Assembly: GCA_017795025.1 (NCBI GenBank)
Contig: CP051243.1
Span: forward strand, 744,001 to 808,000
Source: Flavobacteriales bacterium
GTDB lineage: Bacteria > Bacteroidota > Bacteroidia > Flavobacteriales > Schleiferiaceae
Length of the DNA: 64,000 bases
Reading direction: 5' to 3'
Part shown: one piece after another, positions 14,269-18,431 of the stretch
How the letters are laid out: each line of letters begins with the position of its first letter
Position numbering within the stretch: the first letter of the stretch is position 1
Notes under the pieces: generated by a model
What the model was told of the DNA's origin: nothing
The model's database searches: none
Seen by the model: the letters and a program-made list of their open reading frames with translations, nothing else
Program-made: the position numbers and the translations under genes

Positions 14269-15216
14269 ATGCAAAAATTACAGCTTAAAGGACTGGGCTT
14301 TGGTTATGAGGACCAGTTGGTTATCCGCAATCTACATTTAAAACTAAGCCCCGAAGCCCGCTTGGGAATTGTGGGTGCTAGTGGTTCGGGAAAATCCACT
14401 CTTTTAAAACTCATTGCGGGTCAATTATCGCCCGATACGGGTGCACTTTTTTTAGATGGCATTAACTACCAGGAGGAGCGCAATGAGCGCATGGATCAGC
14501 ATCCCCGGGTGGCGCTTATGGCGCAGGATTTTGACTTAGACCCCAACCTTACGGTAGATGAAAACATGGCTCGACACGGACGACATTTAGCGAGCAGTCG
14601 TTTACAACGCTACTTGGGAAAGGTGCATCGGGCTTTTTCTTTACGTACGGTGAAACAGCAAAGGGTTCATAGTTTATCGGGCGGGCAGAAGCAGCGGCTT
14701 GCTTTGGCCTGTGCCTTAATAAGCGATGCCGATCTTCTTTTATTGGATGAGCCTTTTAGTCAGCTCGATTATGCTTTAAAGCATCAAATTCTGGATTTCC
14801 TCGAATCGGAGGTTTGGGATAAGACTATTATCATGGTAGGTCATGAGCCTACGGATATCATGCGCTTTTGCCAAGAGGTAGCCGTTTTAAATAAGGGACG
14901 CATTCTGCAAAAGGGCAGGGTAGAAGAACTCTATCATTATCCCAAGAATGAAAAGGTGGGCCGTTTAACCGGCTTAATCAATGTTCTGAAGCCAGAGGAA
15001 CAAGCAGCAACTGGAATTGAGGAGTCTTTATTTAGGCCCTTGCATTGTCGTTTATACCCGGATGGGGACTGGCGCTTGAGCCATTTAGAATACCATGCCT
15101 TTGGACAGCTTGGCGTTTTGCAACATCCTTGCGGGGCTAAGGTAAAAGCTCAAATACCTATGGAAGGGGCCTTTAGCATTGGCAGTACTTGGCAGCTAAG
15201 CATAAAAAAACCCTGA
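14269..15216 (+). CDS. Orphan ABC transporter ATP-binding protein
   Basis: ATPase subunit of about 315 residues. Counting from the ATG, Walker A GASGSGKST is at about 36-44, the Q-loop region follows at about 80 (MAQDFDLD), the signature LSGGQKQRLALA is near 138-149, Walker B LLLLDEPFSQLD is near 158-169 and the H-loop VGHEP near 190. About 95 residues follow the ATPase core, as in PotA/FbpC-type import ATPases with a TOBE-like extension. A TTG seven codons upstream (14248) is possible, but the ATG gives the normal start (MQKLQLKGLGFGY). No permease or binding protein is encoded nearby, so its partner must be elsewhere. The stop codon lies inside the stem of the next terminator. Confidence 0.85.
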   Translation: MQKLQLKGLGFGYEDQLVIRNLHLKLSPEARLGIVGASGSGKSTLLKLIAGQLSPDTGALFLDGINYQEERNERMDQHPRVALMAQDFDLDPNLTVDENMARHGRHLASSRLQRYLGKVHRAFSLRTVKQQRVHSLSGGQKQRLALACALISDADLLLLDEPFSQLDYALKHQILDFLESEVWDKTIIMVGHEPTDIMRFCQEVAVLNKGRILQKGRVEELYHYPKNEKVGRLTGLINVLKPEEQAATGIEESLFRPLHCRLYPDGDWRLSHLEYHAFGQLGVLQHPCGAKVKAQIPMEGAFSIGSTWQLSIKKP

Positions 15217-15236
15217 CCGTTTTGGGTCAGGGTTCA
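15204..15236. terminator. Terminator between the convergent ABC ATPase and rplT genes
   Basis: AACCCTGACC (15209-15218) and GGTCAGGGTT (15225-15234) form a perfect 10-bp stem with a 6-base loop. Seven A at 15204-15210 become a T run for minus-strand transcripts, so the main use is to end the thrS-infC-rpmI-rplT operon. The TGA stop of the ABC gene is part of the stem. Confidence 0.85.
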
Positions 15237-15256
15237 ATATCAGAAACCAATTGGTT

Positions 15257-15604
15257 TTACTTCTTAACTCGATTTACAATCGCTTTGAAGGCCTCAGGAT
15301 GGTTCATGGCTAAATCAGCCAATACCTTGCGGTTCAACTCGATTCCTTCTTTTTTAAGCAATCCCATAAAAGCGGAATAAGATAAGCCGTGTTGACGGGC
15401 TCCGGCGTTAATACGCTGAATCCACAGGCTACGGAAATTCCGTTTTTTGTTACGACGGTCGCGATAGCTATAAGAAAGCCCTTTTTCAACGGCGTTTTTA
15501 GCTACGGTCCATACATTTTTACGACGACCAAAGTATCCTTTGGCCATTTTCATCACCTTTTTGCGACGAGCGCGTGATGCTACTGAATTTACTGATCTTG
15601 GCAT
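15257..15604 (-). CDS. rplT: 50S ribosomal protein L20
   Basis: 115-residue, strongly basic protein with the complete L20 pattern: [19 protein letters not shown] at the start, [36 protein letters not shown] in the long helix, and [17 protein letters not shown] at the C-terminus. It binds 23S rRNA early in 50S assembly and in several bacteria also represses the infC-rpmI-rplT operon. Last gene of the operon, directly before the terminator. Confidence 0.98.
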
Positions 15605-15683: not shown

Positions 15684-15878
15684 TTAGATGGTAAGCTGCT
15701 TTTTAATGCTAGCTTCGTCAGCTTTGTCTACCAAACCTGACTGGGTAAGATTACGCTTTTGCTTGGTCTCCTTTTTAGTAAGGATGTGACTTTTAAAAGC
15801 GTGCTTTCTTTTGATTTTACCGGTACCGGTAAGCTTAAAACGCTTTTTGGCACTGGATTTTGTTTTCATTTTTGGCAT
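15684..15878 (-). CDS. rpmI: 50S ribosomal protein L35
   Basis: 64 residues, very basic, with the L35 signature [20 protein letters not shown] followed by [20 protein letters not shown]. The length is exactly that expected. It lies 30 bases after infC and 79 bases before rplT, the standard order. Confidence 0.97.
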
Positions 15879-15908: not shown

Positions 15909-16466
15909 TTATTTCTTGGGCGCAATCATCATAATCATGCGCTTGCCTTCTAATTTGGGAAGGCTCTCCACTTTACCCAAGTCTTCAAGGTCCTGTGCTA
16001 AACGCAATAGGAGGATTTCTCCTTTGTCCTTAAAAACAATCGAACGTCCTTTAAAGAATACATAAGCCTTTAATTTGGCTCCTTCTTGTAGGAAGTTCTC
16101 GGCGTGCTTACGCTTAAACTCGTAATCGTGATCGTCGGTGTTGGGACCAAAACGAATCTCTTTAACCACGGTTTTTTGCGCCTTTTGGGCAATTTCCTTT
16201 TGCTTCTTCTTCTGGTCGTAGAGAAATTTCTTGTAATCAATGATTTTCGCTACCGGAGGATCCGCTTTCTCGGTGATAACCACTAGGTCTAAACCTTGGT
16301 CCATCGCCATCTTTAAAGCTTCCTTTGTGGAAAAGATACCCGGTGTTACATCTTCGCCAACCACCCTCAACTCAGGATAATTGATCTTCGCGTTAATCTT
16401 GTGTTTGTCCTCTTGAGGTTCCCTTCTCGGTCCTCTTCTTCTGTGGTGAAATCTCTTAGCCAGAAT
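15909..16466 (-). CDS. infC: Translation initiation factor IF-3, with non-AUG start
   Basis: IF-3 keeps the ribosomal subunits apart and checks start codon and initiator tRNA. The first in-frame ATG (16370) gives only 153 residues and starts inside the N-domain. Upstream, the frame continues through a basic stretch typical of Bacteroidetes IF-3 (LAKRFHHRRRGPRREPQEDK, then HKINAKINYPELRVVGEDV), bounded by an in-frame TAA. Between that stop and the basic stretch there is no ATG, GTG or TTG; the candidates are ATT (16464-16466) and CTG (16461-16463). ATT is chosen because infC uses AUU in E. coli for autoregulation. That gives 185 residues. The C-domain motifs FGPNTDDHDYEFKRKHAENF and KGRSIVFKDKG are intact. 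Confidence 0.9.
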   Translation of the reverse strand: MLAKRFHHRRRGPRREPQEDKHKINAKINYPELRVVGEDVTPGIFSTKEALKMAMDQGLDLVVITEKADPPVAKIIDYKKFLYDQKKKQKEIAQKAQKTVVKEIRFGPNTDDHDYEFKRKHAENFLQEGAKLKAYVFFKGRSIVFKDKGEILLLRLAQDLEDLGKVESLPKLEGKRMIMMIAPKK

Positions 16467-16490
16467 TAAATTATTTAGTTATACTTCAAA

Positions 16491-18431
16491 TTATACGTCA
16501 AACTCACCTATCTCGCTTGCTATCTGTGCGTCTACCATTTTAATGAAGGCTTCCAAGCTCATGCTTCCTAAGTCTTCACCGCCGTGTTTCCGCACCGACA
16601 CTGCGTTTTCCGCTGCTTCCTTCTCCCCAACAATTAGCATATAAGGGATTTTAGAGACCTCGGCATCCCGGATTTTACGTCCGGTTTTTTCAGCACGCTC
16701 GTCAACGAGGGCGCGAAGTTCGTAATTTTTAAGCAATCCTGAAACTTTCTGGGCATAATCCAGATATTTATCCGAAATCGGTAAAATCGCAATCTGACTG
16801 GGCATCAGCCATAAAGGGAAGTTTCCGCCGCAATGTTCCAGTAATACTGCCACAAAGCGCTCCATACTACCAAAGGGGGCACGGTGAATCATAACCGGAC
16901 GATGGTTCTCATTATCCGAACCTTTATACTCCAGTTCAAAGCGCTCTGGTAAATTGTAGTCTACCTGAATAGTACCTAACTGCCACTGACGTCCCAGGGC
17001 ATCCTTAACCATAAAGTCGAGCTTTGGTCCGTAAAAAGCAGCCTCGCCATACTCTACCACATAATCAAGTTCTTTCTCGATTACCGCTTCTTTAATGGCC
17101 TGCTCTGCTTTTTCCCAGTTGCTATCGCTACCGATATATTTCGAGCGATCCTCTTGATCTCTTAAGGAAACCTGAGCGGTAAAGCTTTGGAAGTCGAGGG
17201 TTTTAAAGATGTAGAGTACCAGGTCGATTACCTTTTTAAACTCATCTTTTAACTGTTCGGGAGTACAAAAGATATGCGCATCATCCTGGGTAAAGCCACG
17301 AACGCGAGTAAGGCCATGCAATTCGCCACTTTGCTCATAGCGATACACGGTACCAAACTCGGCAAAACGAATAGGTAGATCGCGATAGGAGCGAGGGGAT
17401 GATTTATAAATTTCGCAATGATGCGGACAGTTCATGGGCTTGAGCAAATACTCCTCATTCTCTTCGGGAGTATGAATAGGCTGAAAGCTGTCCTTACCGT
17501 ATTTAGCGTAATGTCCGCTAGTTACATAGAGTTCCTTATTACCAATATGCGGGGTGATTACCGGATCGTAACCTGCAGTTCGTTGTGCTTTTTTAAGGAA
17601 TTGTTCCAAGCGCTCGCGAAGTTCCGCACCTTTAGGTAACCATAAAGGAAGCCCTTGACCCACCTTTTGCGAAAAAGTAAAGAGTTCTAATTCCTTACCC
17701 AGTTTCCGGTGGTCTCGTTTTTTAGCTTCCTCCAATAACTCGAGGTATTCCTTAAGCATGGAGGCTTTGGGGAAGGAAATTCCATAAACCCGGGTAAGTT
17801 GAGGATTGTGCTCATTTCCACGCCAATAGGCCCCGGCAACATTCATAATTTTTACCGCTTTAATAAAGCCGGTATTCGGAATATGTCCGCCTCTACAGAG
17901 GTCGGTAAACTCGGCATGGTCGCAAAAAGTAATCGAGCCATCCTCCAAGTTTTCAATTAACTCGGTTTTAAATTCATTATCGGTGTAGCGCGCTAAGGCC
18001 TCTGCTTTGCTAACGGGATGTAGCTTAAACTCGGATTTCTGACGTGCATTTTCCAACATGCGTTGCTCCAGCTTCGCAAAATCGCCTTCCCCAAACTCAT
18101 GCCCATTAAAGTCGACATCGTAGTAAAAACCATTTTCGATGGCCGGACCAATGGTTAATTTAATTCCCGGGTACAATTGCTCTAAGCTTTGCGCTAATAG
18201 GTGAGCAGAAGAATGCCAAAAAGCTTGCTTACCTTCTGGGTTATCCCAAGTATAAAGCACGAGGTCGCCACCGCCCGGTAAAGGATCGCCAGCCTCCACC
18301 GTTTTACCATTAAGGCTAGCCGATAAAACATTGCGCGCCAGTCCGTGACTGATGCTTTTCGCTACATCTAAGGCCGAGCTTCCTTCTGGATACTCCTTTT
18401 TACTGCCGTCTGGTAAGGTAATTTCAATCAT
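16491..18431 (-). CDS. thrS: Threonyl-tRNA synthetase
   Basis: 646-residue class II synthetase that charges tRNA-Thr. An N-terminal TGS domain (1-60) is followed by the editing domain with [11 protein letters not shown] (about residue 73) and the catalytic core: [10 protein letters not shown] binding zinc, [20 protein letters not shown]-type motif 2 and [14 protein letters not shown] motif 3. A C-terminal anticodon-binding domain starts near residue 540. First gene of the thrS-infC-rpmI-rplT operon, with a promoter box 22 bases upstream of its start. Confidence 0.98.

Follow-up and report, generated by a model that had tools for sequence, protein, structure and literature searches.

Translation starts other than AUG, GUG or UUG are a known feature of infC, the gene for initiation factor IF-3, for which AUU, AUC and AUA starts have been described. 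In E. coli, infC lies in the order thrS-infC-rpmI-rplT and starts with AUU downstream of a GGAGG-like stretch, and feedback of IF-3 on its own synthesis through this start has been documented (in passages of PMC5472188). Start codons outside the set AUG, GUG and UUG are subject to discrimination by IF3, according to a section of a review (PMC4611024), and part of a cryo-EM study describes CUG complexes as less stable than canonical ones (PMC11497404). Lineage-fixed non-canonical starts are also described for Streptomyces, where infC begins with AUC and its start is misannotated in most members (further passages of PMC5472188), and for Listeria, where it begins with AUT/ATT (in a portion of PMC13068326). 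In S. aureus, an AUA start has been mapped by profiling (in an excerpt of PMC13009471), and infC relies on an extended Shine-Dalgarno motif. In F. johnsoniae, A residues at -3, -6, -12 and -13 raise translation, a context described there genome-wide (in sections of PMC6847099), and the terms infC, AUU and non-AUG are absent from the main text of that paper.

We compared these systems with the infC locus of a Flavobacteriales bacterium, contained in a 64-kb stretch of DNA (hereafter the window). As in E. coli, IF-3 is encoded in the order thrS-infC-rpmI-rplT, and sequence comparison points to a start codon other than AUG, GUG or UUG. However, this codon is most likely CUG and not AUU, 77 of 79 leaders in the window's family contain no Shine-Dalgarno-like 4-mer, and the feedback described in E. 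coli would apply to this lineage by analogy. A Shine-Dalgarno sequence before the start, as found in the E. coli and S. aureus genes, is not a defining part of the regulation and is absent here; AUA, the S. aureus codon, is also the one found most often in the window's order once its own family is set aside. The Streptomyces and Listeria genes share with the window a non-canonical, lineage-fixed start but differ from it in codon, phylum and leader type, while the A positions reported in F. johnsoniae match those before infC here. What looks new is a family-wide CUG start of infC behind leaders that almost all lack Shine-Dalgarno-like sequence, AUA or AUC being the codons at this place in sister families. 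In the open-access literature, subscription papers lying mostly outside the search, we found no paper on infC with a CUG start, and nothing on a Bacteroidota infC with a CTG start codon. As a control, E. coli infC gives ATT when read in the same way.

The gene is single-copy in this 3.44-Mb single-contig genome (one genome-wide match to NCBIfam TIGR00168), and both IF3_N and IF3_C lie above the Pfam cut-off in its product. It closes on a TAA at 15911-15909 and is followed by two open reading frames that we take, from their sequences, to be rpmI and rplT (Table 1).

Table 1. Features of the infC locus (positions in the window).
Feature	Position	Strand	Remarks
infC (IF-3), read from CTG	15909..16463	minus	184 codons plus stop
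In-frame TAA bounding the open stretch	16479..16481	minus	
CTG, proposed start (CUG)	16461..16463	minus	family conservation, sole candidate, best context
ATT, start proposed in the earlier note	16464..16466	minus	directly before CTG, with its A at -3 of CTG
TTG, start in the mechanical ORF listing	16368..16370	minus	judged not to be the start
AAA, A-rich initiation box	16474..16476	minus	-13 to -11 of CTG
thrS	16491..18431	minus	upstream of infC, in the infC reading frame; ORF listing
rpmI (bL35), presumed	15684..15878	minus	downstream of infC; ORF listing
rplT (bL20), presumed	15257..15604	minus	downstream of infC; ORF listing
thrS-infC intergenic leader, 27 nt	16464..16490	minus	little predicted structure

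After the TAA at 16481-16479, the infC frame reads CTA AAT AAT TTA ATT CTG GCT AAG AGA TTT CAC CAC AGA AGA AGA. An earlier note on this DNA had stated that no ATG, GTG or TTG occurs in frame between this stop and position 16370, and that the open stretch so bounded holds ATT followed by CTG, and both statements agree with the codons as we read them, the next canonical codon being the TTG at 16370-16368. The same note had placed the basic N-terminus of IF-3 upstream of the first ATG; the upstream location holds, although the codon at 16370 is TTG and not ATG. Similarly, ordinary start rules do truncate the protein, but the 32 residues given for the loss apply only if counting starts from ATT, and 31 are lost from CTG, the product being of 153 aa from TTG (as in the mechanical ORF listing) versus 184 aa from CTG.

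The stretch upstream of this TTG looks translated, judging from the way it varies among relatives. Over codons 2-31, all pairs of seven same-genus genomes show 48, 46 and 263 differences on codon positions 1, 2 and 3, respectively; of the codon differences, 216 are synonymous and 85 non-synonymous. The long form of the protein covers IF3_N profile positions 1-69 of 70 (87.9 bits), and the form from TTG covers positions 11-69 (76.5 bits). The conserved basic N-terminus that the earlier note had recognized is real, and the N-terminal extensions in the family measure 15-26 residues with a mean net charge of +4.5 (78 loci). It is extremely improbable that translation starts instead at the canonical TTG, or at another downstream codon, and leaves the upstream stretch untranslated. 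The mechanical ORF listing does begin at 16370, and the shorter protein also exceeds the two Pfam cut-offs, but this start would leave the third-position bias upstream unaccounted for, would lose the first 10 IF3_N positions and has a poor context, and a TTG stands in this column in just two of 78 family members and in one of seven within the genus. We therefore rejected TTG 16370 as the infC start, as it is unconserved and lies downstream of a coding signal.

Comparison within the window's family, which we take to be the Schleiferiaceae, indicates that the infC start is most likely the CTG at 16463-16461, and not the preceding ATT. We searched 88 genomes of the family; infC was present in 83, of which 82 could be read, the 83rd (G078) being cut off by a contig edge. 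In 79 of these 82 loci, CTG is the codon adjoining the basic stretch on its upstream side (13 of the 79 had two fitting CTG codons, one of which was picked by hand-set rules), and ATT precedes it in only nine of the 79, which speaks against the AUU start put forward in the earlier note. When ATG, GTG, TTG, CTG, ATA, ATC and ATT are all considered from the stop to the IF3 core, 48 family loci have a sole candidate, which is CTG in 46, ATG in one and TTG in one; 63 of the 82 have no ATG, GTG or TTG at all in this interval, and in five of the 79 CTG loci the in-frame stop lies merely 1-2 codons before CTG. Codon usage points the same way. In the three nearest genera (g1-g3), the CTG column is uniform in all eight distinct full genes, whereas at least two codons occur in every one of the 11 other invariant Leu columns; over 78 genes of the family, all six Leu codons are found in each of five invariant Leu columns. 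In 96 genes of the window genome, 10% of the Leu codons are CTG. Within the window's genus alone (six distinct genes), one further Leu column out of 15 shows no variation either.

The family exceptions are L011 and L012, with ATG, and L021, with TTG. L021 carries TTG GCA CTA in the start region instead of CTG, which represents a switch to a canonical codon. In L011, L012 and L294 (Schleiferia type, two genera), IF-3 has a shortened N-terminus that begins at ATG (M-S-K-D), and the non-canonical start has been lost. The use of ATG by two family genera implies that a non-canonical infC start is dispensable. Among 80 named loci, CTG stands in an Owenweeksia MAG (L287), ATG in Schleiferia thermophila (L294) and ATA in Chryseobacterium loci such as L293. 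The Schleiferia leader is identical to the one of L012, a member of the window's family, and on this basis we assign the genus to that family.

Outside the family, the codon at the homologous place is a different one. Taking the first near-cognate codon before the Ala codon, we found ATA in 46, ATC in 12, CTG in two and no such codon in three of 63 distinct loci from other families of the order (64 rows, L224 repeating L077). A conserved ATT across Flavobacteriales, which the earlier note had proposed to look for, is therefore not what the order displays: the window's family has CTG, and ATA or ATC occurs in 58 of the 63 loci elsewhere. Canonical codons (ATG, GTG or TTG) occur outside the order: where a candidate precedes GCN, it is canonical at 12 of 39 loci from other orders of the class and at one of 21 from other classes, and 34 of 73 rows and 23 of 44 rows, respectively, have no candidate there. 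These class- and phylum-wide counts were obtained mechanically, by taking the first near-cognate ahead of GCN, and are indicative only. Flags for a TAA inside infC, raised in some genomes of other classes and in G400, proved to be the ordinary gene-end stop in the four loci read. Across the phylum, four non-canonical codons occupy homologous places (ATA, ATC, ATT and CTG) and, judged from these comparisons, it is the non-canonical character of the infC start that persists, and not the codon itself. On quick and weakly resolved IF3 trees, good for rough counts only, the start codon changed at least 11 times among 137 labelled rows of 140, with two changes between ATT and other codons within the family.

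The strongest argument for the register is that an A box lies at a constant distance from whichever codon is used. Relative to CTG, the family loci have A at -13 in 77, at -12 in 74 and at -3 in 66 of 78; relative to ATA or ATC, other families of the order have A at -13 in 51 and at -12 in 53 of 58. AA at -13/-12 is present in 74 of 79 infC leaders and in 43 of 178 genome ATG starts, and Shine-Dalgarno-like 4-mers (GGAG, GAGG, AGGA or AAGG, within 20 nt) in two of the 79 and 29 of the 178. We rejected the idea of an A box dedicated to infC, since AA at -13/-12 also occurs in rplT (14/15) and rpmI (14/29) leaders, and the box would rather mark strong starts in general. A context model built from the 178 ATG genes of the window genome ranks CTG (score 4.76) higher than 97% of true starts, ATT (1.36) higher than 54% and TTG 16370 (-1.53) higher than 17%; among random sites, 0.08% score at least as high as CTG and 9% at least as high as ATT. 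Two results of the same model count against CTG: the TTA at 16469 scores 4.10, close to CTG, and CTG outscores the codon preceding it in only 51 of 78 family loci.

The ATT deserves separate consideration. It precedes CTG in all nine loci of g1-g3 but is missing from the remaining 70 CTG loci of the family, and in g1-g3 it is as fixed as CTG itself, while nine invariant Ile columns all vary in codon, so that something must constrain it. The start may then have shifted one codon upstream in these genera, with AUU as initiator, CUG as codon 2 and regulation unchanged, and E. coli infC also begins with AUU. We nevertheless regard such a shift as quite unlikely: CTG stays fixed in these loci, where a plain Leu codon should vary, and the context of ATT is the poorer one in all nine. 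Moreover, the codon before the start is also fixed by lineage where initiation at it would be impossible, being ACA (29), ACT (14), ACC (13) or CCT elsewhere in the family and GCC at 29 loci from other families, so that the fixity of ATT needs no start function. ATT also fits the prevailing pattern (A or G at -3 in 55/58 and C or T at -2 in 56/58 outside the family; C or T at -2 in 76/78 inside it), and it can be explained as mere start context. Confined to three genera, in a poorer context and followed by a fixed CTG, ATT as leading start was demoted to a rival. Alternatively, AUU and CUG might both be used, as tandem weak starts yielding two proteins one residue apart. This would account for the fixation of both codons beyond synonymous expectation in the nine g1-g3 loci, and ATT CTG recurs before the basic N-terminus in two closely similar Flavobacteriales MAG loci (L295 and L317), whose nearest neighbours in the tree are rows from outside the family. 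Yet the two are mutually close (tree distance 0.05) and were counted as one case, to the disadvantage of tandem starts, which no data require and which a context favouring CTG makes very improbable. Only slightly less remote is a broader version in which AUU and CUG are both used and both read by IF-3, the A box replaces an extended Shine-Dalgarno motif, and the phylum keeps autocontrol while swapping the codon (AUA, AUC, AUU, CUG).

We consider the best explanation, with a probability of about 0.72, to be an infC gene started by CUG behind an A-rich, Shine-Dalgarno-free leader and limiting itself through IF-3. We infer that CUG is used in the cell, where the leader, with A at -13, -12, -11 and -3, would place the 30S subunit at this codon, perhaps assisted by ribosomes terminating thrS 27 nt upstream. 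Insertion of fMet opposite CUG would give the protein M-A-K-R-F-H-H-R-R-R... As CUG would not be freely passed by this IF-3, in the way that AUG, GUG and UUG are, plentiful IF-3 would lower its own synthesis and scarce IF-3 would raise it. An IF-3-sensitive start is the likeliest purpose of the non-canonical infC codon. It is unlikely, though less so than the shift to AUU, that CUG is the start and merely keeps expression low, with no IF-3 feedback. We found no Rfam match to a known regulatory RNA at gathering scores across the 64-kb window, and the strong A box suggests that a weak codon is partly compensated, both of which would suit low expression as the sole purpose. On the other hand, the codons found across the phylum (ATA, ATC, ATT and CTG) all belong to the class discriminated by E. 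coli IF-3, and in E. coli the feedback itself has been demonstrated, as part of PMC5472188 reports.

Such a self-limiting CUG start may also be coupled to thrS. With the C-terminal part of the window thrS as query, thrS could be located at 78 of 79 family loci, where it ends 11-42 nt upstream of infC. The intervening leader in the window is little structured: predicted folding around it gave a z of +1.60 over an 83-nt stretch. Neither Rfam, at gathering scores, nor folding gave any sign of a structured leader or a known regulatory RNA upstream of infC, such as the structured RNA leader of L20/L35 leader-controlled infC operons. Between 15000 and 18500, Rfam at E up to 1 returned only two weak sRNA matches, below gathering score and just after rplT (15202-15249, minus strand), which probably represent a terminator hairpin.

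CUG starts are very rare in bacterial genes, and part of a survey counts switches to CUG at two of 61,358 ancestral AUG starts (PMC5622118); here, one essential gene seems to keep CUG across a family of 19 genera. Neighbouring families with AUA or AUC at the homologous place provide natural codon swaps, which make it testable whether IF-3 feedback is the reason for keeping a poor start codon, in a phylum lacking Shine-Dalgarno starts. Gene callers limited to ATG, GTG and TTG will remove the basic IF-3 N-terminus in such genomes.

Finally, the thrS stop region of the window (16491-16481) contains an apparent 12-base tandem duplication, TTTGACGTATAA followed by TTTGAAGTATAA, by which thrS ends four codons earlier than in the genus-mate L002 and the gap to CTG amounts to 27 versus 15 nt.
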